Source: Cladophialophora immunda (Eukaryota > Ascomycota > Eurotiomycetes > Chaetothyriales > Herpotrichiellaceae). Taken from it: DNA of 64,000 nt. The translations under genes and the position numbers were made by a program. Positions 30,715 to 63,554 of the stretch are shown one piece after another. The notes under the pieces are model-generated. The model had not been told where the DNA came from. It was given only the letters and a program-made list of their open reading frames with translations, and searched no databases. Numbering within the stretch: position 1 is the first letter of the stretch; every line of letters begins with the position of its first letter. The stretch covers positions 4,170,042-4,234,041 of the forward strand of contig NW_015622545.1 of the NCBI RefSeq assembly GCF_000835495.1. The letters are read 5' to 3'.

Positions 30715-31568
30715 CTACATTAGAGGGCCACTGTCACGAATGTTTTCACCTTCTGGCGGTTCGCGGGGCTTCTCGATTGTTGGCTTGATTGGCAGCTTTG
30801 CGACATTGAATATGGTTGTCATGGGCTTCGGAGCTTTCGTGCGAGTCTTCTTTATGCCAACGGAAACCACCTATACACGAGAATGACGATTTCGACCGGG
30901 AGATAGGAAAATACTAATGGACCACTTGGATGTCTACCGAATGACTTCAAGCGGTTAGTGCCTTGGCGCCCGCAGCTGCGACTTTGTGCCTGCGTTTCTC
31001 TCTTCTCCTTTGTCCACACAAGTCCATCTGCCATCAAATCCATCCCTTTCACACCGTCTGCTCCTTGTACATAACGTGGAGTGACCAGGCAGCGCAATGC
31101 TTCGGCCCGTCTCCAGTCTGTGCCGGGGTTTCCGAAGGGATCGCTGGTGCCTTATCGTGCGATGGATTACCGTCTCTGGATTCAAAGTTGCCCCTCCGCA
31201 ATGCAACCTAGGAGAAGCTCTAACCTGCCCATCGAGGAATAGGTCGACTATCCACATCACAAGAACCTTGTCGAGATCCTAGTCAAGCCAATCAGCCCCT
31301 GTCAGATCATTGATACTGACTGTTATTCTTCCTCTAAGCTCCTGCGAGTTCCTGGCGAGTCTGCAAGTGCCTGCACGCTCCCGCAGAGCTGCCGGAGGCA
31401 ACATGAGTGGACTTGACGTAACCTGTCGCCATCTGTAGCACGACATCGGCCATGGGCAGCTCCCAAGGTAACCTACTTCAGCCGCGTGATCAGACGTCGA
31501 CATTCAAGCTCATCTCCCAGAAGCTTGTTTGCTCTGCTTGCTCTGTCTGCATTGGAGTGCGTGAATTC

Positions 31569-33285
31569 ATGATGAAGACCCTCAGAAACATCGTCGTTGC
31601 CTTTGCAGCCAGCATTGGCATCGTTGCGGCCCAAGTCGGCCCTCTAGATGAGGACGGAAGACCAACAACCTATACAGCATATGAGTTTGATCAGCTCATT
31701 GACCATTTCCAAACTAGCTCAAGATATGCGCCAAACACGAATGCCACTTTCAAGCAAAGGTATTATTTCGACAACACCTACTACAAGCCTGGAGGTCCGG
31801 TCTTTCTCTACATCAGTGGCGAGACGAGCGGACCATCGCGCTTTTCGAATCTTCAGACTGGGATCATCCAGATTCTGATGAACGCAACCGGCGGACTGGG
31901 TGTCATTCTTGAGAACAGATACTATGGTGAAAGCTACCCGTTTTCGAACTCTACGACCGACAATCTGCGATTTCTCACCACGGAGCAGACTATTGCTGAC
32001 AATGCGTACTTTGCTCAACATGCTACCTTCCCCAACATCACTGGTGGAAACAACCTCACGGCCCCGGGTCATCCGTGGATCTTGTATGGAGGTAGTCTTG
32101 CTGGTGCCCAGACGGCCTTTTCACTAGTTCAATACAAAGGATTGCTGTGGGGCGGCATTGCTGCTTCAGGTGTGATTCACGCTGTCCTGGGCTATCCTGA
32201 ATGGTACGATCCTATACAAGAGAATGGGCCCCAGGATTGCATCTCCCGCATCAACAATATCATCGACAAGATGGACTACCTGATTCAGCACAACAACACA
32301 AAAGCTATTCAGCAGTTGAAAAATATCTTTGGGCTTGGATCTTTGAGTGATCTCAGAGATTTCGCCATGACTGTAAGTGAGACCTTTACTTTGACCAGGA
32401 CTTCTATCTGACTTCTCAGATTGCCTTTCCACTGGGCGGACCAATGAATTATCCTACCAGCACCTGGCAAGAGCTCAACTGGTATCCGGCCTACGACAGT
32501 CCGGATTTCTTCTGGTTTTGCAACAACATTACCAACATGGACGCCCCAGCAAACATCACGGCAGTTGACATGCAATTGGCGAACTACACTAATGGCTCGG
32601 CATGGACGGGCCTGGGAGCATATGCGAACTACGTCAAAGAAGTGATCGTCTCGACTTGTGACAGTCCAGACTTGATCGATACGACTGAGTGCTTCTCCAC
32701 CCAGAATGGTAAGTTAGCGGATCGAGATCTAGGAAATGTGCCACTACTGACGGTCGAGCAGCTACTTTCTACGCCGACCCTACTAATTCAGCCAGTCGCT
32801 CCTATCTATACAGTACATGTATCGAGCAAGGCGCATACCAACTCCCGCAACCGTATGGCAAACCATCTCTCCTTTCCCGCGTCATTGGTCTCGACTACAC
32901 CCAACAATGGTGCACGTGGGCATTCCCGCCAGGCCCTCTCTCGCCTCAAGCTGTGCCATCCCCAGACGGCCCAAACCTAACATGGTACAACAATTACGGT
33001 GATTTTAACCTTACAGCGCCGAGGCTGGCGTTGATTGATGGTGGAAGCGATGTGTGGCGGGATGTATGCTACCATGGTCGCAATGCCAGTACACGATACG
33101 GGGCGAATCAGATGCTCATCACCGGAGGCGGCCACCACTGGGATAGTTCGGGAATACTGAACATTAGTGCAGAGCCGGACTTCATCAAAGCTGCACATGA
33201 GTGGGAGCTGCGGCAAGTGACGGGATGGTTGGATGAATGGGATTCGACTCATGATAAGAAGGTCAGAAAGAGGGATGAGCTATGA
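31569..33285 (+). CDS. Secreted serine peptidase, family S28 (prolyl carboxypeptidase/acid endopeptidase-like)
   Basis: Exons 31569-32372, 32420-32708 and 32762-33285 give 538 residues. The signal peptide is about 1-22 (ending IVAAQ). The N-terminal FDQLIDHF, NRYYGESYPF and LYGGSLAGAQTAFSL blocks define fungal S28. The nucleophile is Ser176 in GGSLAG. Near the end, DGGSDVWRD (Asp461) and GGGHHWDS (His489/490) complete the triad. About ten N-glycosylation sequons suggest secretion. Family members cleave after proline, often at acid pH. Odd point: the protein ends in KRDEL, so the last four residues form an ER-retrieval-like sequence. An upstream in-frame start at 31452 is less likely because it would bury the signal peptide. 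Confidence 0.92.
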
Positions 33286-45733: not shown

Positions 45734-46495
45734 GGGGGCATGCTGTAATTTCCACCATCCAGGAATTAGGGACCAGGTTGGAGCTCTTTTTCTTTTTCTT
45801 TCTCGGAACTCGAAGACAAAAGGACAGAATGGCAAAGTCGTCTCGTGCGGTGCGACATGGCTACAGCGGTGGTGGTAGTAGCAGCAGCAGCCTCCAGCCC
45901 CCAGATGGGCTTGGAGCATTCGCGAGAGGTATTCTGCTTTGTACCACAATCACACCCATAACCACAATCAAAGATACACCAATAGCCAGACGAGGGCCAT
46001 GTTAGAGAACTGCTTTCCGTGAATTGCGTCGTTGTACCCATGTACCATACTCGAAGTAAGTAAGTATTGGAGGAGTGACTACTCGGTGCTAATAGACTGA
46101 GTGATCACTGAACTGCGCACTGAGGACATTGGGGTAGATCTGTCGGATTACTTGGGAAGACGGTGATGGCCTCGTTGCATTTCCCCTTCCTCTTGAACTA
46201 TCTATGCTCGGTATATCAGGGGGGCAAAGTTCGGGGTATTAAGAAGTAATGTAACTTTTATTATACAACACAACACAATCCAACCCCAGTCAATGGCCTA
46301 TTCGATGAACCCCTAACCTGATAATATGATGAACGATCGCTTGGGAAAGAGTCGTGCATTTTTGATACAGGGATATATATACACAGGTACACGATGACAT
46401 TTGTGTTGTGCATGCATGTATGCGGACAGGCATTTTTGTGGATGCGATGGCGAAAAGGGCGGCTTTGTGGTGGAACCCGGGAGGAAGACGAGAGG

Positions 46496-46567
46496 ATGAG
46501 CATGAGCATGAGCATGAGCATGAGCATGAGCATGAGCATGAGCATGAGCATGAACATGAGTATGAGA
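46496..46567. repeat. Hexanucleotide microsatellite (ATGAGC)n
   Basis: Nine perfect atgagc units (46496-46549) are followed by three imperfect ones (atgaac, atgagt, atgaga). The array is open in most frames, giving His-Glu, Met-Ser, Ser-Cys or His-Ala dipeptide runs, so open frames across it are not evidence of coding. Confidence 0.95.
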
Positions 46568-46605
46568 GCCAGGAGAGGGAGAGACTGCGTGCGCGCGTAC
46601 GTGCG

Positions 46606-47115
46606 TGCCCAAATGTTGGTTGGCCGTCGTCTTCGGATGGATGAGCTTTGATTCCGTTGATATACAATGGCCGCTCAGACTCGTGGATGTCGTCGAGGCT
46701 TTTGGGACTTTTAGCAGGACGGACTTTTCCCTTGGGTCTGTCCTCTTGAATTCCAATCCCGTATTCGCGGAGACGGTCGAAGAAACACGAGAATGGATAC
46801 TCGGCGCCGGTCTCTGCTGTTGTCTCCCACCGAAGCTCGTTCGAACTCCGAGGCGTCTTCGTCCTTCCATTAGCACGTCAACCTCGACCTCGTAGCTCTC
46901 CGATCCTAAGGAGAGTGCCGTTCTCCCCGAGGGCCCACTGCTCTGTTGACCCTTGGCGATGTTGAACACGTCTTCTCAAAGCGCCGGGTGAGGATAGTGG
47001 TGGTTTGCCCGAGAGTCTGGCGGCGGCGCAGTTGCTTTTCCAGCGCTGACGGGGACAGAGCTCCATGGCCTGAATGCTGCCCCGATGCCTGAACCCCGTA
47101 AGTGATCGTACTCAT
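46606..47115 (-). CDS. Tentative, unrecognised multi-exon gene
   Basis: A minus-strand frame starts with ATG at 47115 (MSTITYGVQASGQ) and reads to RRRQTLGQTTTILTRRFEK. In a second frame, a coding-like block runs from ~46845 to ~46606 (EYPFSCFFDRLREYGIGIQ, then SLDDIHESERPLYINGIKA) with codon use like true genes. Joining needs one or two introns; a gtgctaatgg branch-like sequence lies at about 46867-46876 between them. The frame then runs into the microsatellite, where the 3' end is unclear. Against it: the ATG is only 60 nt beyond the S8 stop, and no family is recognised. Confidence 0.3.
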
Positions 47116-49800: not shown

Positions 49801-50582
49801 ATGGCCCCCTCTACTCCTTTCACGCCGCTCCGAGTCTTCATCTGCGCAGCCATCTTCTTCACAGTAACACTGTTCATTTTCCATGACAATGTCCTCAAGA
49901 CTGTGGTCGACCTACATAAAGAGAGTTGTGGACATGTTAATACAGGGAGCTCCCATGTCGGCCATCAAACTTTTCCCTATGTCTTCACGCCAGATCCTGA
50001 GCTGGGAAGTCTACAGCCTGAAGGCGATCAAGCATGGGATCGTCTGAACACGAAGAAAGGGGGCTTCCTCTGGGTTGAGTACAACGAGACCCTGGATGTG
50101 GCCTATGGGATCTCGATGTTCCACGGTATCCACTGTCTTCAGATACTTCGGCATGCGTTCCAAAGCCAACTGGGCATCACGAGTATGAAAGGAGATCACG
50201 GACACCACTCCCGCATGGAAAGAAATGAGGGAATCCAGCATGAACATGGTCAAAAAGACCGCGACCTCGGCCATCTGGGACATTGTCTGGCGTATATTGC
50301 AGAGGTATGGTCAAGGCTCCCTTGCTTACCTGACATTCAATTCTCTGACCAGCTCCGAAGATGCTTCTCTGCACTGGAGACAGCACCATAGAGCACCCAG
50401 TAACGCGGATCGATGAGAGAACGGGCTTCCTCATCAATGATGGCATCGATGGCCGCGGGGCTCAGCATCAATGTCGAGATATAGATCACCTATGGGCAGT
50501 TGCTCGTTCAACCGAGACGAAGGCCGCAAATATGTGGGATTATAGACCCGGGGACACGGTAGAGTCGGTCTTTTTCCAGTAA
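49801..50582 (+). CDS. UstYa-family (DUF3328) oxidase-like protein, RiPP cluster gene A
   Basis: Exons 49801-50304 and 50361-50582 give 241 residues; the ATG is in GCCATGG context. A membrane anchor lies at about 10-28, followed by a luminal domain. Both family motifs are intact: HGIHC (His108, His111, Cys112) and HLGHC (His158, His161, Cys162). The second motif continues across the junction to MLLC, giving the typical HC-x-x-Y-x8-C spacing. The 3' splice site is therefore AAG before the Met at 50361, not the earlier CAG, which would end the protein after 12 residues. Family knowledge: UstYa/UstYb catalyse oxidative cyclisation of ribosomal peptides in ustiloxin-type pathways. It converges on the precursor gene, 476 bp away. 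Confidence 0.9.
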
Positions 50583-51058
50583 CACAACGCTATTTTACAT
50601 TCCATTGATATTAGCATGTCCACGAACCGAATAGTCTCTGCGAATCAGTCAAAGTAAGAAGTAAAAGTAACCACCATCTTCGTCTCCTGCTTGTACCAAA
50701 ACACCTTCTCCCAACGTTTCAAAGACATGTGAAGTCAAATAGACGGCATTACATCGTGAATAAAGCACCATGGCTTGGGATCCACTTTCTCCCTCTGCGA
50801 GCAAGATTGATTTGAAACACAAAGTTGGGACACTGGCAGCGAAGCAGGACATTGGTAGACTCAATGGAGCAGACGACAACACGAAGTTTCACCACATGAA
50901 TTCCCCTCTTCAAATGCTATTGCACCAAACTACTCTTCAGTAGCCTCACTATTTCCGTCTCCAAGACCGCTTCACCCCCACATCACTTCTCTTCCCACAG
51001 CCTTTTCCTCTTTTCAGATGTCGATCCAGATCAGGTAGCCATCTTTCACGTTCCAGTT
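50583..51058. other. Gap between convergent UstYa gene A and the precursor gene
   Basis: Holds the two 3' ends. No gene or repeat is seen. Confidence 0.5.
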
Positions 51059-51721
51059 CTAGTTGCCGAGGACGTTGAAGTATCCAGTCTCAGGCTCGCG
51101 CTTCTTGTTGCCACTGACAGCAATATACCCAGTCTCAGGCTCTGGCTCGCGCTTTTTGTTGCCGAGGACATTGAAGTATCCAGTCTCGGGCTCGCGCTTC
51201 TTGTTGCCGCTGACGGCAATATAACCAGTCTCAGGCTCGGGTTCACGCTTCTTGTTGCCAAGGATAGCAATGTATCCAGTCTCAGGCTCGGGTTCGCGCT
51301 TCTTGTTGCCCAGGACGTTGAAGTATCCGGTCTCAGGCTCCGGTTCGCGCTTCTTGTTCCCACTGACAGCAATATACCCAGTCTCAGGCTCGGGTTCACG
51401 CTTTTTGTTGCCGAGGATTGCAATATACCCAGTCTCGGGCTCCGGCTCCGGCTCGCGCTTCTTGTTGCCAAGGATAGCGATGTATCCAGTCTCAGGCTCG
51501 GGGTCCCGCTTCTTGTTGCCGCTGACAGCAATGTACCCCGTCTCGGGCTCTCTCTTCACCGCAAGATCTCCACCCCGAGCAACAAGAGCCGGTTCTGTTC
51601 TAGATCATGAGATCTCCAACCATCCTTTCATCCTCGAGAGCTTGGACTCACCAATGACTGGAAATGCCTGAGATGCCGCAGCAAAGAGCATCAGCCCAGC
51701 TAGGAACTTCTTGGAGAACAT
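51059..51721 (-). CDS. Multi-core RiPP precursor peptide (dikaritin/UstA-type)
   Basis: Exons 51721-51652 and 51594-51059 give 201 residues; the 57-nt intron falls just after the signal peptide region. Layout: signal peptide (about 1-19), short leader to Lys37-Arg38 (LVARGGDLAVKR), then ten repeats. Each repeat has an acidic spacer (EPET, EPEPET, DPEPET or EPEPEPET) and GY-x4-GN; all but the last end in KKR. Core variants: YIAVSG in repeats 1, 4, 7 and 9; YIAILG in 2, 3 and 6; YFNVLG in 5, 8 and 10. The stop codon replaces KKR in repeat 10. Family knowledge: such precursors are secreted into the ER/Golgi, cut by Kex2 at KR and cyclised by UstYa proteins. Two UstYa genes flank it. The product and any bioactivity are unknown; a non-RiPP role (repeat pheromone-like peptide) is the main alternative. 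Confidence 0.93.
51062..51550 (-). repeat. Coding tandem array, ten units of 45, 51 or 57 bp
   Basis: The unit is 51 bp (17 codons) in most copies. Copies with a shorter or longer acidic spacer are 45 or 57 bp. The length steps of 6 bp equal one Glu-Pro dipeptide codon pair. Units are nearly identical at DNA level, with scattered synonymous changes (for example cgc/agg Arg and gag/gaa Glu choices), suggesting recent duplication or gene conversion within the array. Confidence 0.93.
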
Positions 51722-52748
51722 GGTGATCAAGACTCGAGCAACGATGTACTCCTGATGTTGACAAGATGCGGATCCTGGGTGAGAGAGTGGGAGAGGTGGA
51801 ATTGCTTCTCGAGCTGCAGATACAACTTTCTGATATTTGGATCATGAGATACCTGGGGAAAGCCTTTATATTATCCCAGAGGTGGTTGGATGCCGTCAGT
51901 AGTCCTGAGTCCTGTTTCTTTCAAGGTGAGCCGTTTGATTACCACTAATTCTAATGACAAAACTGATGGTCGATCGGCGTCTCTGTCATGGTATGAAGAC
52001 ATACCAGAGAAAGATGGTTTGGACAGCCGATCCTCGTCCCCGACCTTCATCCCCATTGCTCTCGTCTCTCTCCCTGCGTAGGTGTTGTCCGAACTGCTGG
52101 TGCCACAAGATGTCTCCACCAACTCGGTCGGATTCAGCTGTATTGAGCATACATCAACCGACCGGTGTGTTGTCAATTAAGAGGACGGATGCAACAACAT
52201 TCCTTCGGGATGGGATCAAGATGAAGAGCAGTCTGGACTTCCCATCGAGGCAACTGGTTGACGGCAGATGGCCCACACGTCAGCTGTGAGGTAGTATTGA
52301 ATGCATTAGAGGATTCTCATCATCGAGATGGCGCTCTCATTTGCTGTACACCCCCTGGATGAAAACATCTTTCTTCCGATGGAAACATTCTCACGGCAGC
52401 TCGCCGCCCAAAGATGGGAACAAATAGCCATGACGTTGATTTCACTGTGGCCAAGGTGACTGAAGATCACCACGAAACCGGACACAAAATCAACCGCCTC
52501 TTGGCCGTCGCTTAATGTCTCTACACCGGGAGTAGTGGGAGATCTGGGGAGTTGATATTACTGCGGTTGGACTCTTCTCGTGCCTATCTAGGGTTGCCTT
52601 TCTCTTCACTTGATTTCCTTCATAACTCCACGTCAAGGGGTGACTGCGTACCCTCCAAACGGCATGAAGGGCTCATACGACCTGGTTCCGGGGAGCGAGG
52701 AGGAGCAGGTAAGTTTCCACACAAAGTGCCAAACGCCATGTTCTGCCC
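51722..52748. promoter_or_regulatory. Shared divergent promoter region of precursor and UstYa gene B
   Basis: About 1 kb between divergent starts, with the TATA-like element on the precursor side. The + frame 51954-52289 has no domain. Divergent arrangement would allow co-regulation of precursor and modifying enzyme. Confidence 0.5.
51863..51870 (-). promoter_or_regulatory. TATA-like element of the precursor gene
   Basis: TATAAAGG on the minus strand, about 142-149 nt before the precursor ATG at 51721. This would allow a 5' leader of roughly 110 nt. Confidence 0.5.
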
Positions 52749-53716
52749 ATGTTGAGAGAAAGTGATATCCAGGGCTTGATCAACGAAATAGCAAGGGCTA
52801 GAAAGAACAAGTCGTGGAGCAAGCTCACCATCTGCTCTATGCTCTCCAATGTCATTCTGTTGGCGGGGATTGTCATGATTGCTGTTTTCAGAAAACCCGC
52901 CGACATAGAATGCTTGAGGAGAACCAACGCTTTCTGTGGGTTTTCCGCAAGACTCTTCTCCCTTTGGATTTGCTTCTCAGACCGCAGCTAACCAAGCATC
53001 TCCCTCCAGCGCCCATTTTATATGATGCGGACATCCCGCTCGAACGCGTCAAGCTCAACGGGACTTTTTTCCCCGCCACGCAGCCGGCCAATTTCTGGCG
53101 GCAAGAGCCCAATCCCGCGCTCGACGAGGCCTGGGACGCCCTCGCGGAGACACCGGCGTTCCTCGTCACCGCCGACGAGGTGAGAAAGGCCGGACGCGAC
53201 CCCGAAAGGGCGGTCCGCGTGCCCGAGTCCTGGGGATTGAGGCCCAAGGGCGACCCCGTGTACTTTGCCCAGATGGATGGGCAGCACTCGATCCACTGCC
53301 TCAACGCCCTCCGCATGTTCGCCTACTTCCCCTACTACTTTGGCCACAAGTGGAAGTCGACGGCCGAGATGCCCGTGTACCAGCAGAACCACCTGAACCA
53401 CTGCGTCGACATGCTGCGGCAGAACCTGATGTGCTCGATCAGCACCGACATCGTCACCTACGAGTGGGTCGAGGCGAACGACACGCCCCAGCCCAACTTC
53501 AGCATCGAGAAGGTGTGCCGCAGCCGCGACGTCATCTGGGACTGGCTCCAGAGGCACAAGCTGCACCTCACCCACGACCAGGACTACCACACGCCCAGAC
53601 CCCCGCCAGGGCAGTACCAGGAGGTCCCCGCCAGCCCTTACTGGTTGGACCTGATCAAGGCCTCGCGGGCCAAGGGGGTGGAGGTGCACAACTATATCGA
53701 ACAGACAGAGATTTAA
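52749..53716 (+). CDS. UstYa-family (DUF3328) oxidase-like protein, RiPP cluster gene B
   Basis: Exons 52749-52935 and 53010-53716 give 297 residues; the intron has a perfect ctaac branch. The junction makes RRTNAFSPILYDADI, matching the family's post-membrane region. An N-terminal cytosolic stretch and a membrane anchor (about 26-47) precede the luminal domain, with KLNGTFF and NPALDEAWDAL typical of DUF3328. Both catalytic motifs are intact: HSIHC (155-159) and HLNHC (190-194), followed by VDMLRQNLMC. Exon 2 is extremely GC-rich at third positions, unlike gene A and the precursor, so the two paralogues have different histories. It probably acts on the precursor next door, possibly as a heterodimer with gene A. 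Confidence 0.92.
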
Positions 53717-54628: not shown

Positions 54629-56443
54629 CTATTTGACACTCAATCCTTCTACCAGGTCGGGCTGAGCAAAGCCCAGTCTCGTTCGGGGTCCTCTTCCGAT
54701 TACGCCGTACTTGACCTTGGTATCTCCAAACTGAAGCTTCAAATGTTTTATACCGCCTTTAATACTGGTAGATTCGAGGATTGGCGCCCCGAAAGCGTGC
54801 GATATTTCCACGGGGCTCAAACTGACATTCCGTCCAAGTTCCCAGAAGCCATAATATGAAGGCAGAATCAACAGTGCGCATGTAAGCATGGTGGCCACAG
54901 CGGCAGCTGCGTACGCCTTGTTCGTAGAATACTGGCCACCATATCCTTGCTTGGTTGCTGAGATTTGCGCTGGGCCGTATTGGATGGGCTGGTTCCACTG
55001 CCAATCATAAGGGTTTGTTGCGCTGGGAGGAGCGTTGACGCTGAGGAGGTACGTCCACTGGTTGAGTGCCCTGACAATATCGGGGAACGGATCATTTGTC
55101 TCGTAGAAGCACAACTCGGTGGCATTCTGGAAACCTTCGCCGGATGCCCAAAATTGAGCAGCGTTGGTCTTGGGCATCCTCCAGTTGTCCAGAGCCCAGC
55201 CTGACTTCTCACGTATCATGACAGCCTCCATGGCGAATGCATCGTTGAGTGCAAACTGTATTCCGCCGATCGTCGAACCGGATTCAGTGCCGTCCTCTCG
55301 GATGTCAAGGTGCGAAATGACTGCGACCTCAGACAGCTGATTCCCTGCGATGGACAAGCCCATCAAAGGCAATGACGCCGTGGCACTCGATGAGGCCGAG
55401 GTGTTGGTTACGCTCACGTCGGCGAGCTCGATGATCGCCGGCCGGAGTTCGCAAACCGTCGCCACATATCTCACATAACAGTGGCCATCGAGTCCATCTT
55501 GCTCTACGGCAAAATCGCTCGAAATTCCGGCACCAGTGTATATTATGCTTGTGTAGTCTTTGTCTCCCCCAGCCCAGCTCATGGCAAAGTCAACACTCCA
55601 TGCGCGAACATTGTCCCCCACCGGTACCGACGACATGTTAAAGACCTCGTTTGCGGTATCCTTGCATGCAATTGAGAACCCCAGAGTTTGAAGCGAGAAT
55701 GTGCAGGAGCCGGAGTTGCAGCCACTGTAGGCAAAGGCCGAAACTCCAATATCTCCACCGACTTCAATTTGCGTGGCCCAAGAGAGGAGGGAATAAGGCT
55801 CCGTCGGCGCTGAGACGTTTCCGCCAACAACATATCCCGTCAGGGGATAGCTTATTGCCGAACGAACGTCCAGGGTTGTGTCTGTCGAGTAGTTGTCGCT
55901 GCCAACTACGAGAGAGGTTGCTTTTTGAAGAAGAATCCCATCGGCTATCGAGATCTTGGTTGCGAGGGCGACCAAAGCCGCGAGGCTGTAGTACCTAGGA
56001 TGGCACCAAAACGCAAGTCCCGAACTCGAAAAGTACCACTGTTGGTGCAGTTGTTTGACGGTGGTTCCGCGAACCGCTCTTCTCCACCAGTAGATGGCAA
56101 AGCCTTGACCAGCAGCAGCAAACAAACAGATGTTTGTCACCGCGTTGATGATTGCGAGCAACACACTGGGAGGAGGACATTCGAGGCGGATGTCCACGTG
56201 TTTGGAGTGGACGGTGGTCGCACGCTGCCATTGCGCTTGGGACTGGCCATCTGAGAGCAGAAGAACGGTCAATGCCCCGGCAGCACCGGCAACGACTGTG
56301 AGAAGGGATATGAAGCCAGCCCACGGGAACCTAGCCGACAGCCCAGGGTGCCAGGGGATTTGCACCAGCTGCTGCTCCTCCCCACCGTCATCATACTCGT
56401 GTGATATTTCTGTCGCCACTCGTTCGTAAGGCTTGCCGGCCAT
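54629..56443 (-). CDS. Large fungal membrane protein of unknown function (DUF3176-like layout)
   Basis: Single exon, 604 residues from the ATG at 56443. Cytosolic N-terminus, membrane segments at about 37-58, 86-110 and 142-165, then a long extracellular/luminal domain with several N-glycosylation sequons and paired cysteines (SGCNSGSCTFSLQ, GHCYVRYVATVCEL). A last membrane segment lies at about 520-545 (YAAAAVATMLTCALLILPSY), followed by a cytosolic tail. Motifs such as QGFAIYWWRRAVRGTTVKQLHQQW are shared by a large, lineage-expanded fungal family without assigned function. A link to the RiPP genes is not supported by anything but position. Confidence 0.75.
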   Translation of the reverse strand: MAGKPYERVATEISHEYDDGGEEQQLVQIPWHPGLSARFPWAGFISLLTVVAGAAGALTVLLLSDGQSQAQWQRATTVHSKHVDIRLECPPPSVLLAIINAVTNICLFAAAGQGFAIYWWRRAVRGTTVKQLHQQWYFSSSGLAFWCHPRYYSLAALVALATKISIADGILLQKATSLVVGSDNYSTDTTLDVRSAISYPLTGYVVGGNVSAPTEPYSLLSWATQIEVGGDIGVSAFAYSGCNSGSCTFSLQTLGFSIACKDTANEVFNMSSVPVGDNVRAWSVDFAMSWAGGDKDYTSIIYTGAGISSDFAVEQDGLDGHCYVRYVATVCELRPAIIELADVSVTNTSASSSATASLPLMGLSIAGNQLSEVAVISHLDIREDGTESGSTIGGIQFALNDAFAMEAVMIREKSGWALDNWRMPKTNAAQFWASGEGFQNATELCFYETNDPFPDIVRALNQWTYLLSVNAPPSATNPYDWQWNQPIQYGPAQISATKQGYGGQYSTNKAYAAAAVATMLTCALLILPSYYGFWELGRNVSLSPVEISHAFGAPILESTSIKGGIKHLKLQFGDTKVKYGVIGRGPRTRLGFAQPDLVEGLSVK

Positions 56444-57510
56444 GTTGCAAGGAGGGATTCGGAAGACGCAGGTCTGGTGCGACAAGGCTGAAGAAGTCAG
56501 ACTTGAGCAACGGGGAAGAATGGATTGGGCTCACCTTTTCAAAGAGAACTTGGAGCGCCATGACTGCCGTCCAGACCACTCGATCGAGCCCATGATGGCC
56601 GCCGGCACAAACTCTAGACGGCGGTGGACGGGGAATACGAGCATTGAGTGCGCAAAACTTGTGAGAGTTGAAGTAGTGGGCGGACCAGAAGCTGAAATCG
56701 CAAGCGAGAGGACTGCTAGGCTGTGTCGCCTGGTTTAGGAAGAGGCATAGTGTGATGCTAGATTCTGAGTGCTCTGCGCCAGCCTCACAGGCGTGTCTTG
56801 AAATCGGGCGTCGAAGGAGATGTTCTAGTGCCCCCTCGCACCAATAAAGATTGAAAGGTTGTAAAGGTTGGAGGGGTGGCGTCGAAGATACAAATTAAGC
56901 CTCAAGCAGGCGATGCGTGCCTAGGCCTCACCAGCCTTGGCTCGACCTTCGACCGCCTGCGCCGCCACTCCATCGCAGTCAAGCTTCCTCCCCATTTCAC
57001 AGCCTGGAGCTTAACTTAAGCGAGTGCCAGGCACATTGGACGCTGCTCGAGATGCCAAGGTCTAGTTCAATCAGCTTTGCAGACGAGGGAGAGTTGCTTC
57101 TCCCGTACTCGGTACTTGCACACTGTTTGTTGTCTGCTACTTCTTCCGCGCGCCTCGCTCCCAATACATGACCTGGATTGTCTTTCTCATATACACGAGG
57201 TAACCACCGTCAATGCCATCTCTGTCAGAGGTTGCTAAGGCGTCCCTCCTAATGGAAGCGAGGCAGCGAGGCAGCTGGCGGTCTTGGCCAATGTAACGCT
57301 ACAACCTCGTGTGGCAGAAGGCCAGGCTTGTGCTGGTGAGCCTAAGCCAAGTACTAACTACATACCTTCTGCATGATTGTGACTCAGAGGCCTCCGTCGG
57401 AATAGGAAGACAGAAAAACGGGTGCCGTCTTCTTCTTCCTCCTCCTCTGGCTTCGCCATCATCTATTGTATCTGCACTTCGCTGCACCTGCGCACAGACT
57501 TAGCGACAAA
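56444..57510. promoter_or_regulatory. Divergent intergenic region
   Basis: Between the membrane protein gene (-) and the GNAT gene (+). No supported gene. A short gcgaggcagc repeat lies near 57258-57275. Confidence 0.4.
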
Positions 57511-58297
57511 ATGCACGTTCGACCTGCCCGGAGGACAGATCTTGCAGACCTGGCCACCATCGCCAGAGACGCCATGTTCGATGATGAGTTGACCATCTTT
57601 CTAGCCCCTAATCGTCACCGACATCCGGAATGTCTTCGACAGGGAGTCCTCAGACGTGTAAAGAAGCGCTTCTACGACGGACATCTCGTTCTTGCTGCCG
57701 TGTCGGATGAGAATGACGTGTGGTGGGACGGCAAGGAGAAGGTGGTTGGCTATCTTTCTGCTATCTCTACTAAGAAAAACGCAGACGAAGACAAGGAGAA
57801 GAAATCCTGGCTGCCGTTCTCCTGGAATGGTATGTCTTACAAGTTTCCCTAGTCCAAAGTCCTTTGCACTGATCATTTCAACAGCACTCGAGCTTCAGCT
57901 CCTTCGTCTCGAGGACCTCTTCCAATGGTATGCTCACGCCGATAGATCACTGTCCCGAAAAGCCTGGCTACAATTCGTCAACAGTCCTCTTGACACTAGA
58001 CCATTTGCAGACCTCAAAGAGTATTGGCACGTGGACCATCTGTCCGTCGACCCGGCTCATCAGAGGAAAGGTATCGGATCCGCCATGATCAAGTACCTGC
58101 AGAACATAGCATCGGAGGACAACTTACCCATAGCTCTTGTGGCAAGCCACAAAGGTAGGCCAATGTACAAAAAGTCAGGTTTCGAGGATCGTGGCCCTTG
58201 CCAGATGGCATGCCTCGTCAACGAAGCAATGGCATGGTTTCCCACTGCCCTGGCCACCTCGCGTTCACCCGGCGAGACGAAGGATGCCTACTCTTGA
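57511..58297 (+). CDS. GNAT-family N-acetyltransferase
   Basis: Exons 57511-57829 and 57885-58297 give 243 residues. Residues 1-110 carry the N-terminal strands (MHVRPARRTDLADLATIARDAM) and a Lys/Glu-rich loop. Motif A, the acetyl-CoA loop, is WHVDHLSVDPAHQRKGIGSA with the pattern Q-R-K-G-I-G. The following ASHKGRPMYKKSGFEDRG matches the end of fungal GNAT domains. Such proteins are numerous in fungi and acetylate amines or small molecules. The substrate is unknown. It lies ~3.8 kb beyond the second UstYa gene, close enough to ask whether it tailors the peptide. Confidence 0.85.
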
Positions 58298-59160
58298 GCA
58301 TGACACTCACGACTCATCGGTTTTATCACTGGGTATCCGTCCGAAAGACTGTCCATCTTCACCAGTATAACGTCTGTCCTCGACTCCTTGAGAATGTATC
58401 TCCTCATCATTCCACAGCACCATAAGCTGTGAAATGTGCACTTGTTTGACCTGGAAGGCGAGAGTCCCTGTGAATGTGACATTACAACGGAAGCGAACGA
58501 AATCTTGGTCTTAAAACCGGCTGAGATTGCTCTGATATTGGCCACGCCCGCGAGTGCACTCGATCTGCACAAAGCAGGCGATTGAGTCAGCTCCTCACCG
58601 CGGCAGAACACCCAAAACAGATTTACCAGATGGCCCCGTCGCAGTCATTCGGCTTGAAGGACGCATCTTGAACCGATTCCGTAAAAAGAGACATTGGGAA
58701 TTGAGGCCTCAAAAAAACCGAAGGCTAGCCGAGTCTCCCTAGCATTTGGGACTCGGGCCAGACTCTATGGTCATAGCGCACCAACACACGAGGAATTTAA
58801 CCGTGCCCACAAAAGCATGCGCAAGTTGGTCGGGTACAGCCTCCTTGGTCAGCAGTACACTTTCTCATCTATTGGTTCAGCGCATATACGCACGGATCGC
58901 TTCTGATGTGGGTCCAGAACCATGGCATCGCCGCAAACAGCCAGCGGTTCGTGCTTTAAACAATGGGAACGTCGCTTGTGGCAAAAGGCCTCCAACTGCA
59001 ACCAACAACATTGTTGGGAGCGTCATTTCACCCTTACGGGACGGAGTCCTCGAAGTCGTTCAACTCGAGAGGACACCCTTTTCGAACTATCGAGCTTGAA
59101 AACTGACCAGGCTGTGTCTCCTTGACCATCCGAGCGCCTTTCATAGATATAACATCCAGT
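58298..59160. other. Intergenic region
   Basis: Between tandem genes. Only short frames; nothing else is seen. Confidence 0.4.
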
Positions 59161-60930
59161 ATGGCTAGTTCAGCATACTCCAATGGACCACGGCGTCCAA
59201 GCGGATCACTCGAACAGGCAGCAGAGCAGACGAGCACCAACTCGACGACACCTCAATCGCCGTCTCAAACGTCGATATCTAGTTCGATTGACACCTTTAC
59301 GACCAACAGAGACGCTGTGATCTGTGCTACGCATTTTGGCATTGAGCTTGAATTTGTTCTGGCCTTTAGGGAGGATCGATTGAAATCTATCATATCAGAA
59401 TACAATCTGGATGCGGACGTCATTAGAACTCTCGCAGACTATGAACATCGCTCCCTTATTGAACACGACCATATGGGCACGAATCCTTCCTACGAATGCC
59501 GATGGAGACACCCGTCATGGGCACTCCACGTCCCGGAGACGGACATAGTGTGCACCTCGAACCTCCACAAGGGCATGTTTTTCAACAAGGTGGAAAAGGG
59601 GAAGCAATGGGTGCGACGATATGTCGTAGAACCACTTCTCATCGCTCAAGACCGCCTTGGAAAACAGGGACTCCCATCCAACGTTGTGGGATGGCTAGAA
59701 CCTGACCCAAACAATCGACACTGTCCCGAGGCCGCAAAGATCCTGCTACCGAACCACGATTGCACTGACGAAAGAGTCGTACTCCGAAAGAGTATGATAG
59801 ACTACACAGAGTGGACTTTGACCAACGATCATACTGTCATTGGAGTGCTTCGAAGCCAACTCCGAGAACACCTGTTGGCTCGAGGATTTACGCAGGATGA
59901 TGTTCCGAAGTGGGATAGCTATGGAATGGAAATGATCTCGCCAGTTTTTGAACTTGGGAGAAAAACGGAAGCTTTTTCTCAAGTCGGAAAGTATCTAAGA
60001 GCTCTAATCTCGACGGAAACTTCAATTCTCGAGTCTGTATGGGCTAGTGCACATGTGCACATCGGCTTCAACTTCTCGCACCCTGATCAAATGCCCATAT
60101 TATTGCTTCAACATCTGGCATACATCCTCGTCCTACACGAGGACCTCTTGTCGAAATGCCACCCTCGGAGTCGCTGTGGCATTCGACTTTTGGACTCGAT
60201 TTCCGAAGAAGCGGAAGTCGAAGACGCCAGCGACGATGAAGAGTTTGACCCTGATGCCCCTTACGAGCCACCGCCCCAGCCGTCCGAAGACGAGCTAGAA
60301 GAGTGCAACGAACGAGTGGTGGTCGCTTTCGAGGCCAAGTACACTGGAGCCGATAATGTCAGCTCTAACGCTCGGTATCTACGAAAGCAACTTTCACAGA
60401 AATCCATACAATGCACAACCGGAGCGATCAGAGATGCCATCTTCAAACAAGACGGCAATATCTTTGATCTGGTGGGTCTCTTACAACAAAACGATGAACA
60501 CGGCAATCCATGTCGGGGCTACATGTACAACTTTGCGAATCTGGTTAATCTAGCACGCAATATGACGACTTGGAAGCAAATTAAGCCGACAGTCGAATTT
60601 CGGCAGCATGCGTGCACGTTGGATGCAGGTGAGTTGAATCGATGGGTGACGCTATTGGAAAGGATTGTCCGTGTGGCAGAAGAGAATGCACAAGCAACAA
60701 TGCAGTCTGATCCCACCCAACCTACAGACCCGGAACTGCGGAGTTCTTTTGCGGACAGGGAAGGCAGCAAATATCCCTCGAGCTCGACAGCAGGTACGCA
60801 GTGGCCCTGCAGGAGCATGAGTGGGTTTTGTGTCGAGTTTTTGGGCATGAACTCGGAGGACGGGCAGTATTGGCAACAGAGGTTTGAGAGATACAAGGAT
60901 GACAGGCCCGAGTATGATGATGATGATTGA
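59161..60930 (+). CDS. Putative amidoligase (Amidoligase_2, COOH-NH2 ligase-like)
   Basis: Single exon, 589 residues from the first ATG at 59161. After a Ser/Thr-rich N-terminus come the family blocks: HFGIELEFVL (metal/ATP-binding strand), WDSYGMEMISPVFE, ASAHVHIGFNF and, near the end, KPTVEFRQHACTLDAGELNRW. An acidic, Pro-rich insert (about 360-395) is specific to this copy. Family knowledge: these proteins share the glutamine synthetase/gamma-glutamylcysteine synthetase fold and are predicted to form amide bonds. Fungal members are mostly uncharacterised. Because it could in principle ligate an amino acid to a peptide, its location 5.4 kb from the RiPP genes is noteworthy, but the family is common elsewhere. 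Confidence 0.85.
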   Translation: MASSAYSNGPRRPSGSLEQAAEQTSTNSTTPQSPSQTSISSSIDTFTTNRDAVICATHFGIELEFVLAFREDRLKSIISEYNLDADVIRTLADYEHRSLIEHDHMGTNPSYECRWRHPSWALHVPETDIVCTSNLHKGMFFNKVEKGKQWVRRYVVEPLLIAQDRLGKQGLPSNVVGWLEPDPNNRHCPEAAKILLPNHDCTDERVVLRKSMIDYTEWTLTNDHTVIGVLRSQLREHLLARGFTQDDVPKWDSYGMEMISPVFELGRKTEAFSQVGKYLRALISTETSILESVWASAHVHIGFNFSHPDQMPILLLQHLAYILVLHEDLLSKCHPRSRCGIRLLDSISEEAEVEDASDDEEFDPDAPYEPPPQPSEDELEECNERVVVAFEAKYTGADNVSSNARYLRKQLSQKSIQCTTGAIRDAIFKQDGNIFDLVGLLQQNDEHGNPCRGYMYNFANLVNLARNMTTWKQIKPTVEFRQHACTLDAGELNRWVTLLERIVRVAEENAQATMQSDPTQPTDPELRSSFADREGSKYPSSSTAGTQWPCRSMSGFCVEFLGMNSEDGQYWQQRFERYKDDRPEYDDDD

Positions 60931-61556
60931 GAGGACAACCTGGACGATGATATGTGATTGGTGGCTTAGTTGACTATGTGGAGGACGCTCATATGATGAC
61001 GGATAGGCAAACACTATGGACGATCGCTCGTTGAAAAGGTCGCATAGCGGTATTTGGCACGCTGCATATGGTTTGGTAGAGACTCGTGACTTGAATACCC
61101 TCGTTGGATGCTCCGATGAATAGACTTAGATCGAAGACTATTGGATACAAATGGATATTGACTGCTGTAGCACTGCCCTGAGCTCTGCTGTCGCTGGCGA
61201 GGCACGCGGCGGAGCTTTAGCGATCCCAGCCTGATCAACGCTCAGCCTCGTCGCTGCAGCCTCGCGAGTTCAGCCTCGTCGGCCGCTTCCCGTCGGGTGG
61301 AGCGGCATGAAAAAAGCGACTCGCTCTTGCACGCAATTTGTTGCCGGCTTTGCGTCTTGCCTCCGTCATATCTACAAGCTTCTTCCTCACATCCTTGGTT
61401 TTGTTGACGTTGCACATCACTTGCTCCCCATATCTTGTGCTGACTATTGCTCTGCGAATTATATCTTAGCTTTTTTGTACCACGCACACCACGTACAAGC
61501 TTTCAGATTGCCGAGTCTGTGCTCCACATGATAACCTCCGAAGTTGACCCCAACGA
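60931..61556. other. Intergenic region
   Basis: Between tandem genes. Contains only short frames and probably the promoter of the MFS gene. Confidence 0.4.
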
Positions 61557-63554
61557 ATGCCCTCACCGCCGTTGAACATTCCTGACGACCGAGCCAGGCA
61601 GAATGTAGAGGGCGGCAATACCCGCTTTTCAGATGTGTCGCTGACACACGATGGAGCCGCTTCAAGCACGGAGTATTTTGACAAACTGGATGGAAAGAAT
61701 GATCATCTGGAGAATGCGACTGCCAGCCCATCCGCCAAACACCCAGCCAGACCGAGCCTGGCCCCTGGGATCTCCTCAACAGCACGTCGGCCTTCGTTCA
61801 TAGACGAAGAGGAAGACCCCATAGCGACGGCGACCGCTGCCACTAGACAGCCTGAAAAGTCCGACAAAGAAGCACCGGTGACATGGATGTCCTTGCCTAA
61901 GAAGGGACAATTGGCCGTTCTGACCTTCGCTCGACTCTCCGAGCCACTGACGGAACGGTCTCTTGCGGCATACTTGTTCTATCAACTTCGGTCTTTTGAT
62001 CCAGACCTTCCGGACAGCACGATTGCAAGTCAAGGCGGGATGCTCACCGCCTCGTTCGCTGCAGCGCAGTTCGTTACGGCAGTCTGGTGGGGTCGGGCGG
62101 CTGATACGCCCTGGATCGGTCGCAAAAGAGTCTTGCTGGTGGGGTTGTTTGGTACCTGTATCAGTTGCATCGGAGTCGGCTTCTCAAAGTCATTTGCTCA
62201 AGCATTATTCTTCCGAGCATGTGCTGGCTGTCTCAATGGAAATGTGGGCGTCATGAGAACCATGATCAGCGAAATCATCAAGGAGAAAAAGTACCCTTTG
62301 CGTCTTCCCCTTCGCCCCAGAATCATATCATCTAACCAGCCGAACAGATACCAGTCGAGGGCATTCCTTCTTCTGCCCATGTGTTTCAATATCGGTAAGT
62401 TATGCGAATGAGCTCTACATTGGCTCCTTACTAAATGCCTCTTAGGTGTGGTCATTGGCCCTATCCTCGGCGGTTTCCTCGCGGACCCGATATCCTCGTT
62501 TCCTGCCGTCTTTGGCCCGGGGTCTTTGATAGGTGGCAAGGATGGAGTTGGCTGGATGACCGCCTTTCCCTACGCTCTCCCAAACGTGGTGAGCTCCATG
62601 TTCATCCTGGCCTCTGCCATGCTCCTCGTGTTGGGTTTGGACGAGACCCATGTCGCCTTGAAGGACCGACCGGATTATGGCCGAAGGCTGGGTAAGTATC
62701 TAGTCAGGGTTCTCTTCCGTCGGGGTAAGCAAGAATACGAATACTCTGAACTGGGCAACCAGGTCGAGTTGCAGGATATCGACGAAGACGATCATTCACT
62801 GCAAGACAGAGATCCTGAGTCGTCGACGCCCACGGCCACCAAACCCGCTTCTTGGAAACCAAATCTATCATTCCGGCAAATTTTCACCAGGAATGTCATT
62901 CTTACGCTCATTAATCACCACCTCCTCGCTATGCATATATCGGCATTCAACGCGCTGGTGTTCTTGTTCCTACCCGCGCCCCGGTCGAACAACGCCCATG
63001 CAAGATTACCATTTCTCTTCACCGGTGGCCTCGGGCTCAGTTCCGACCGCGTCGGCCTCGCCACCGCCATCATCGGCATCATCGGTTTCCCTCTCCAGAT
63101 TCTCCTCTACCCGTCCCTCAACTCGAAACTCGGCACCTTACCGAGTTACCGATGGTTCCTCCCCTTTTCTGTCCTCGCATACGCCATCATGCCATATCTG
63201 GCCCTCCTCCCGAACAAAGCATACTTGGTCTGGCCCAGTCTCACCGTTGTCTTGGCTTTCCAAGTCATAGCCCGGACATTCGCTCTGCCGGGCTCGACGA
63301 TTCTTATCAACAATTGTACCCCGCATCCGAGCGTGTTGGGCACAATCCATGGCTTTGCGCAGAGTGTCTCTTCTGGGGCAAGAACTCTGGGGCCTACCCT
63401 TGGAGGATGGGGATTGGGCCTGGGATTAGGGGGAAATTGTGTAGGGGCCGTTTGGTGGGTTATGGCGAGCATTGCCGTCTTGAACTGGTCGTTGCTTTGG
63501 GTTATATCGGAGGGAGATGCTGGTGCGGCGGCGGCGGCTGCTATGGGCGGCTGA
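61557..63554 (+). CDS. MFS transporter, DHA1-like (Zrt/YCR023C-type)
   Basis: Exons 61557-62290, 62348-62394 and 62446-63554 give 629 residues. The first intron (57 nt) is in frame and stop-free. I splice it because removal restores ISEIIKEKKYQSRAFLLLPM, conserved in this family, with branch tctaac and acceptor aacag. Residues 1 to ~105 are a disordered cytosolic head. TM1 follows LPKKGQLAVLTFARLSEPL, and motif A is WWGRAADTPWIGRKR. A central acidic loop (about 380-420) separates two six-helix halves, and the second ends GARTLGPTLGGWGLG. This group is usually annotated as multidrug/small-molecule exporters. An export role for the RiPP is possible but unproven at 8 kb distance. Confidence 0.88.

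Follow-up and report, generated by a model that had tools for sequence, protein, structure and literature searches.

A ten-unit Kex2-processed repeat protein gene between two UstYa genes of Cladophialophora immunda, a probable dikaritin-like RiPP precursor

The locus considered here, part of a 64-kb stretch of DNA from the black yeast Cladophialophora immunda (Herpotrichiellaceae, Chaetothyriales) analysed as a whole (the window), raises the question of what is made from a short repetitive gene that encodes Tyr-containing segments between Kex2 sites and has a UstYa/DUF3328 gene on each side. The answer that we consider likely is a Kex2-processed repeat protein (KEP) with Tyr cores that the flanking enzymes oxidise and probably cyclise, which would make it a dikaritin-like RiPP precursor.

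The precursor gene occupies positions 51059-51721 (-), with its ATG at 51721, its stop codon at 51059-51061, and two exons giving a spliced product of 201 aa. Exon 1 (51652..51721, -) holds the ATG and a hydrophobic, signal-peptide-like segment that begins MFSKKFLAGLMLFAAASQA; a 57-nt intron (51595..51651, -; GTGAGT...CAG) is predicted from frame and splice consensus, and exon 2 (51059..51594, -) carries a leader ending in VKR, ten units and the stop codon. The N-terminal hydropathy peak covers residues 6-17 (mean 2.07), a value obtained by hydropathy and not SignalP, and one that hinges on the predicted intron. Two alternative acceptors of this intron likewise keep the repeat frame, with the leader shortened or lost together with the first VKR. 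A signal peptide, a short leader ending in Lys-Arg and ten Kex2-bounded repeats, nine of them ending in KKR, had been proposed in an earlier sequence-only reading of this DNA; this layout was found, the start being signal-peptide-like by hydropathy and the tenth repeat closing at the stop codon, and no hydrophobic tail follows the tenth core, where the protein stops.

The unit parse and tandem repeat analysis (Tandem Repeats Finder array scores 423, 424, and 587) place the array at 51062..51550 (-), with ten units of the form [DE]P(EP)0-2-ET-GYxxxxGN, nine of which are then followed by KKR. The ten cores lie at 51515-51538, 51464-51487, 51407-51430, 51356-51379, 51305-51328, 51254-51277, 51203-51226, 51158-51181, 51107-51130, and 51062-51085 (all -), and belong to three types: GYIAVSGN (four copies), GYIAILGN (three), and GYFNVLGN (three). 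Tyr is present in 10/10 cores; also constant are a beta-branched residue three positions on (V, I, and V in the three types) and the final GN, whereas the residue two past Tyr is A or N, and these short cores contain neither Cys nor Trp. A KEP has been defined by at least three repeats of at least 8 aa between Kex2 sites (PMC7329392), and a strict scan detects 10 similar segments in the ten units of this gene. The precursor was the only ORF returned by a six-frame scan of the 64-kb window for at least three similar Kex2-bounded segments; a His-rich ORF at 46316-46975, picked up by a looser scan, was a false positive dropped by the stricter one.

The repeats vary mainly at silent sites. Third codon positions account for 10 of the 16 variable columns (P = 0.0024, column shuffle over 9 aligned units of 14 codons), and pN/pS in the sense frame is 0.17 over the nine complete PET-core-KKR units, figures whose weight is limited by the relatedness of the repeats and exchange between them. 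Four of the other five frames give values of 1.2-3.5, and the fifth, which is antisense in the same codon phase, gives 0.32. Inside each core type there are zero nonsynonymous differences at a pS of 0.24-0.56, and these silent differences without amino-acid change indicate that the peptide itself is conserved and not just the repeat DNA. An open frame on the opposite strand (50900-51610, +) was rejected as coding, the antisense pN/pS values being 0.32, 2.0, and 3.4 versus 0.17 in the sense frame.

Next to a dikaritin precursor a UstYa/DUF3328 gene is expected, and here both neighbours exceed the PF11807 cut-off. UstYa gene 1 (49801..50582, +; 241 aa; intron 50305-50360; Pfam PF11807 E = 1.7e-7 on exon 1) carries the motifs HGIHC and HLGHC and is convergent (tail to tail) with the precursor gene; UstYa gene 2 (52664..53716, +; 304 aa; introns 52709-52772 and 52936-53009; Pfam PF11807 E = 9.4e-46) carries HSIHC and HLNHC and is divergent (head to head) from it. 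By the coordinates of the two genes, the divergent starts are separated by a 942-bp interval (51722..52663, unstranded), a possible shared promoter. The product of UstYa gene 1 and PV07_09558 of C. immunda show no difference across 241 aa, the PV07 numbers being those of what we take to be isolate CBS 83496, and the product of UstYa gene 2 is one residue off CLAIMM_06542 of the same species. The C. immunda isolates named in a 2017 paper (PMC5595782) are CBS 110551 (CLAIMM numbers), of which it is a transcriptome study, and CBS 83496. Both UstYa proteins have an N-terminal hydrophobic helix, and the double HxxHC is present in both and in 10/10 database proteins, two of these ten being the genes' own records. 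This double motif is described as the copper site of the DUF3328 enzymes, O2-dependent proteins that are anchored in the membrane and face the lumen; copper and O2 are reportedly required by the cyclase AprY too, and members of the family also hydroxylate and halogenate, for example CctR (PMC12435403).

Beyond its own record, UstYa gene 2 has two relatives, with 59% identity over 70% and 43% over 99%, and UstYa gene 1 has six, including proteins from Botrytis hyacinthi (50%) and the lichen fungus Xylographa pallens (55%); a sequence comparison of UstYa 2 with solved structures returned nothing at E <= 0.001. The contigs that encode one UstYa 2 relative (P0002) and the Xylographa pallens relative of UstYa 1 (P0006) measure 23,631 and 23,622 bases, respectively, and the two may be one lichen-fungus locus with both UstYa genes; Xylographa is absent from the main text of a lichen RiPP survey (PMC12048977).

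To the left of the cluster, Pfam identified ribosomal protein S8 and RPN2, and between the RPN2 and ribosomal S8 genes a 6-base repeat, GAGCAT, runs for 12.5 copies (46492-46566). A match to peptidase S28, a family that includes proline-specific peptidases, lies about 17 kb from the cluster (31422-32411, +) and is probably unrelated to it. Beyond UstYa gene 2, Pfam gave matches to DUF3176 (54629-56530, -), a GNAT acetyltransferase (57662-58297, +), Amidoligase_2 (59107-60930, +), and an MFS fragment (61548-62411, +); GNAT genes are present in a lichen UstY cluster (PMC12048977).

The layout had been likened to that of dikaritin precursors, and the comparison is borne out by the KEP layout and extended by the UstYa gene on each side. 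The dikaritins (ustiloxins, phomopsins, and asperipin-2a) share with this locus a KEP precursor (with a signal peptide, and here a signal-peptide-like start), Tyr cores between Kex2 sites, and adjacent UstYa/DUF3328 genes (PMC7329392, PMC9769878), whereas the precursor has different cores (no Tyr-x-Ile) and X-Pro after every Kex2 site. In the ustiloxin/phomopsin subtype Tyr and Ile stand two residues apart (PMC7329392), a spacing that the cores described here do not show, and the cluster contains a tyrosinase gene; in contrast, no tyrosinase, methyltransferase, or P450 domain was found by Pfam in the 27 ORFs scanned here (24 of them among the 38 ORFs of at least 200 aa in the window), a scan that intron-rich genes could escape. 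Asperipin-2a is described as requiring few extra enzymes (PMC12048977). The precursor is of the same kind as the KEPs with DUF3328 neighbours surveyed by Umemura 2020 (PMC7329392), where 1758 of 7878 KEPs from 1461 strains have DUF3328 genes nearby, most commonly immediately beside the KEP gene, and where Tyr occurs in 65.6% of the repeats of DUF3328-accompanied KEPs versus 38.2% otherwise. Given the KEP layout, the Tyr in every core, and the UstYa gene on each side, the assignment as a precursor of UstYa-modified peptides is well supported.

The feature that sets the gene apart from the characterised dikaritins lies in what had been read as an acidic spacer, which can now be described more precisely as a series of X-Pro dipeptides and then an invariant ET. 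X-Pro follows directly after 10/10 Kex2 sites, with one to three dipeptides at each, these repeats not being independent of one another; the background in 12 ORFs of the window is X-Pro after 2/45 KR/RR sites. An X-Pro or X-Ala after the Kex2 sites is also what characterises alpha-pheromone-type KEPs. Ascomycete alpha-pheromone precursors resemble the window gene in having a Kex2 site and then X-Pro, a multi-copy peptide, and a signal-peptide-like start (PMC6339444), a likeness that concerns these described features, and they differ in that UstYa genes flank the window gene. Le Marquer et al. treat the X-Pro signature as a mark of pheromone or hormone candidates, and report that epichloecyclin precursors and those of the toxic cyclic peptides lack the Ste13 signature (PMC6339444).

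It would accordingly be conceivable that the gene encodes a linear, unmodified secreted signal peptide, a pheromone- or hormone-like KEP matured by Kex2, Kex1, and Ste13, while the UstYa genes serve something else, and the signature tied to pheromones or hormones (PMC6339444) is found here after all ten sites. We regard this as unlikely: KEPs with a yeast mating factor or fungal pheromone annotation are almost never near DUF3328 genes, with three exceptions (PMC7329392), whereas here a PF11807 gene is adjacent on each side, and the cores are short Tyr peptides without Cys or Trp. The pairing of X-Pro with DUF3328 is perhaps not unique to this locus, since DUF3328 genes neighbour 17/76 KEPs that look like putative basidiomycete pheromones, and the types G-3, G-8, and P-3 with DUF3328 neighbours have HH or W accompanied by P, G-3 and P-3 including Cladophialophora (PMC7329392). 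Stepwise removal by a Ste13-type enzyme would tolerate one, two, or three dipeptides before the constant ET and core; slippage of the 6-nt EP repeat alone could yield even spacer lengths too. ET is neither an X-Pro nor an X-Ala dipeptide, and the mature N-terminus of the peptides at ET is therefore only predicted. The genome contains one DPPIV_N match, at C5:81367 on the contig that also holds the window, and one Kex2 P-domain match.

The combination of KEP and UstYa genes recurs elsewhere in this genome. At least 22 PF11807 matches group into ten neighbourhoods including that of the window; the nine others were examined as ten stretches, together with four control stretches. The strict KEP scan returned an ORF in 3/9 of these other neighbourhoods (designated L016, L013, and L012) and in 0/4 control stretches. 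The looser scan had also picked up a TKG-type simple repeat in one of the four controls (L023), a false positive dropped by the stricter scan. The KEP of L016 (6387-6689, -; contig C2, ~913.9-914.2 kb) has six DIYHAT[IA] cores closed by KR, each with zero, one, or two X-Pro dipeptides and then a constant ET before it, and X-Pro follows 5/6 Kex2 sites. It is like the precursor in this X-Pro/ET plan and in an upstream, in-frame signal-peptide-like segment, which an intron apparently separates, and unlike it in its core, in the single KR closure, and in having only one PF11807 match nearby. In L013 (2240-2518, -; contig C3, ~3.805 Mb), five EP/DP-started units end in TADWLE (core SLTADWLE), X-Pro follows 5/5 sites, and, in the manner of the window gene, the leader and units are directly preceded by a signal-peptide-like segment; the UstYa match beside it may be spliced or broken, as it shows internal stops when read without introns. 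L012 (4198-4596, +; contig C1, ~8.175 Mb) is an ORF of KEP-like layout that holds four units (ESNLFGWLI...) and lies close to grouped UstYa matches; its sites are followed by DA or DT and not X-Pro (X-Pro 0/4, X-Ala 2/4). A longer His-His repeat ORF beside UstYa matches, L010 (1721-2650, -; contig C1, ~7.092 Mb; PHHTEAQIAAKEAA), passes the looser repeat scan only and not the stricter one, and has X-Pro after 6/9 sites under a widened site definition; it is perhaps of the HH type G-3 of PMC7329392, which lists Cladophialophora.

The pattern K-R-x-P-E-T has 61 matches genome-wide versus 66 for the reversed control pattern, and as such is therefore not enriched; its matches cluster at two places only, the precursor gene (3) and the KEP on contig C2 (4). 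A search of the genome with the precursor itself returned the window gene and one weak match on C3 (E 0.07), which was rejected as a second precursor copy and turned out to be a different UstYa-linked KEP.

A search with the precursor and its cores had been suggested as a check. Against the protein collection, 0/8000 scored candidates (length limits about 110-351 aa) reached E <= 0.01; at the same database size the precursor scores itself at 1.9e-125, which argues against a low-complexity scoring artefact, and the gene seems to be absent from the collection or present there only at a very different length. The core strings had no occurrence in the literature searched (5.39 million papers), and C. 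immunda features in the available text of PMC11195213 only as a compared strain. With no relative in that collection and cores not found in that literature, the individual precursor looks new. Its kind is already well known and abundant, and the gene could be present in the supplementary KEP list of PMC7329392; the KEPs of that survey came from annotated proteins, whereas the window ORF was not found among database proteins. The proposal of a new cyclic peptide family therefore stands as regards a UstYa-modified, dikaritin-like precursor, which is well supported, and does not stand as regards a new family, the kind being known and abundant and the cyclisation being a step that we infer.

For KEPs of this kind, Kex2/Kex1 processing and UstYa-dependent cyclisation of the Tyr cores have been described (PMC7329392; PMC9769878). 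In the present case, the precursor protein would enter the ER, and each core would be oxidised at its Tyr by the two membrane-anchored UstYa copper oxidases, most probably to a cross-link through the Tyr side chain. Cleavage after VKR or KKR would be the work of Kex2, the basic residues would be taken off by Kex1, and the X-Pro dipeptides would be stripped stepwise by a dipeptidyl aminopeptidase of the Ste13/DapB type, so that ten unequal units would give three oxidised products, ETGYIAVSGN, ETGYIAILGN, and ETGYFNVLGN. For these three, in that order, the calculated [M+H]+ values of the linear form and of the form less 2 H are 1010.4789 and 1008.4633, 1050.5466 and 1048.5309, and 1113.5211 and 1111.5055; the linear values without ET are 780.3886, 820.4563, and 883.4308. 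Hydroxylation, desaturation, or another change of the cores by the two UstYa enzymes, with no ring formed, would agree with the hydroxylating and halogenating DUF3328 enzymes such as CctR (PMC12435403), and a ring is not readable from sequence; we consider this quite improbable, given that Tyr is found in every core, is enriched in DUF3328-linked KEPs, and is the residue through which the rings of the characterised products are linked (PMC7329392). Since a beta-branched residue (V, I, or V) invariably stands three positions past Tyr, we speculate that the ring link joins Tyr to i+3, as opposed to the i+2 of ustiloxins and phomopsins. Fungal surface proteins are commonly repetitive and the ORF was not returned from deposited protein sets, yet an uncut repetitive wall or surface protein, or a noncoding repeat, is hardly credible with dibasic sites in strict register, in-frame selection on the units, UstYa genes on either side, and a protein that ends in its tenth core without a hydrophobic tail.

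The preferred reading, a precursor of oxidised and probably cyclised Tyr peptides, can be narrowed further, with clearly less confidence, to a dikaritin-like branch with a Ste13 step of alpha-pheromone style that fixes the ET N-terminus, a UstYa pair that links Tyr with the beta-branched i+3 residue, and at least one other UstYa-linked KEP (L016) that follows the X-Pro/ET rule; we offer this narrower version tentatively, and it may well prove wrong. If it is true, L016 and the window gene would bridge pheromone and cyclic-peptide maturation. The system is compact, with one precursor, two UstYa oxidases, and three predicted products whose masses can be calculated, and, because a Ste13-type signature is combined in it with UstYa oxidases, the evolutionary connection proposed between pheromone and cyclic-peptide KEPs, which PMC7329392 discusses, can be put directly to the test.
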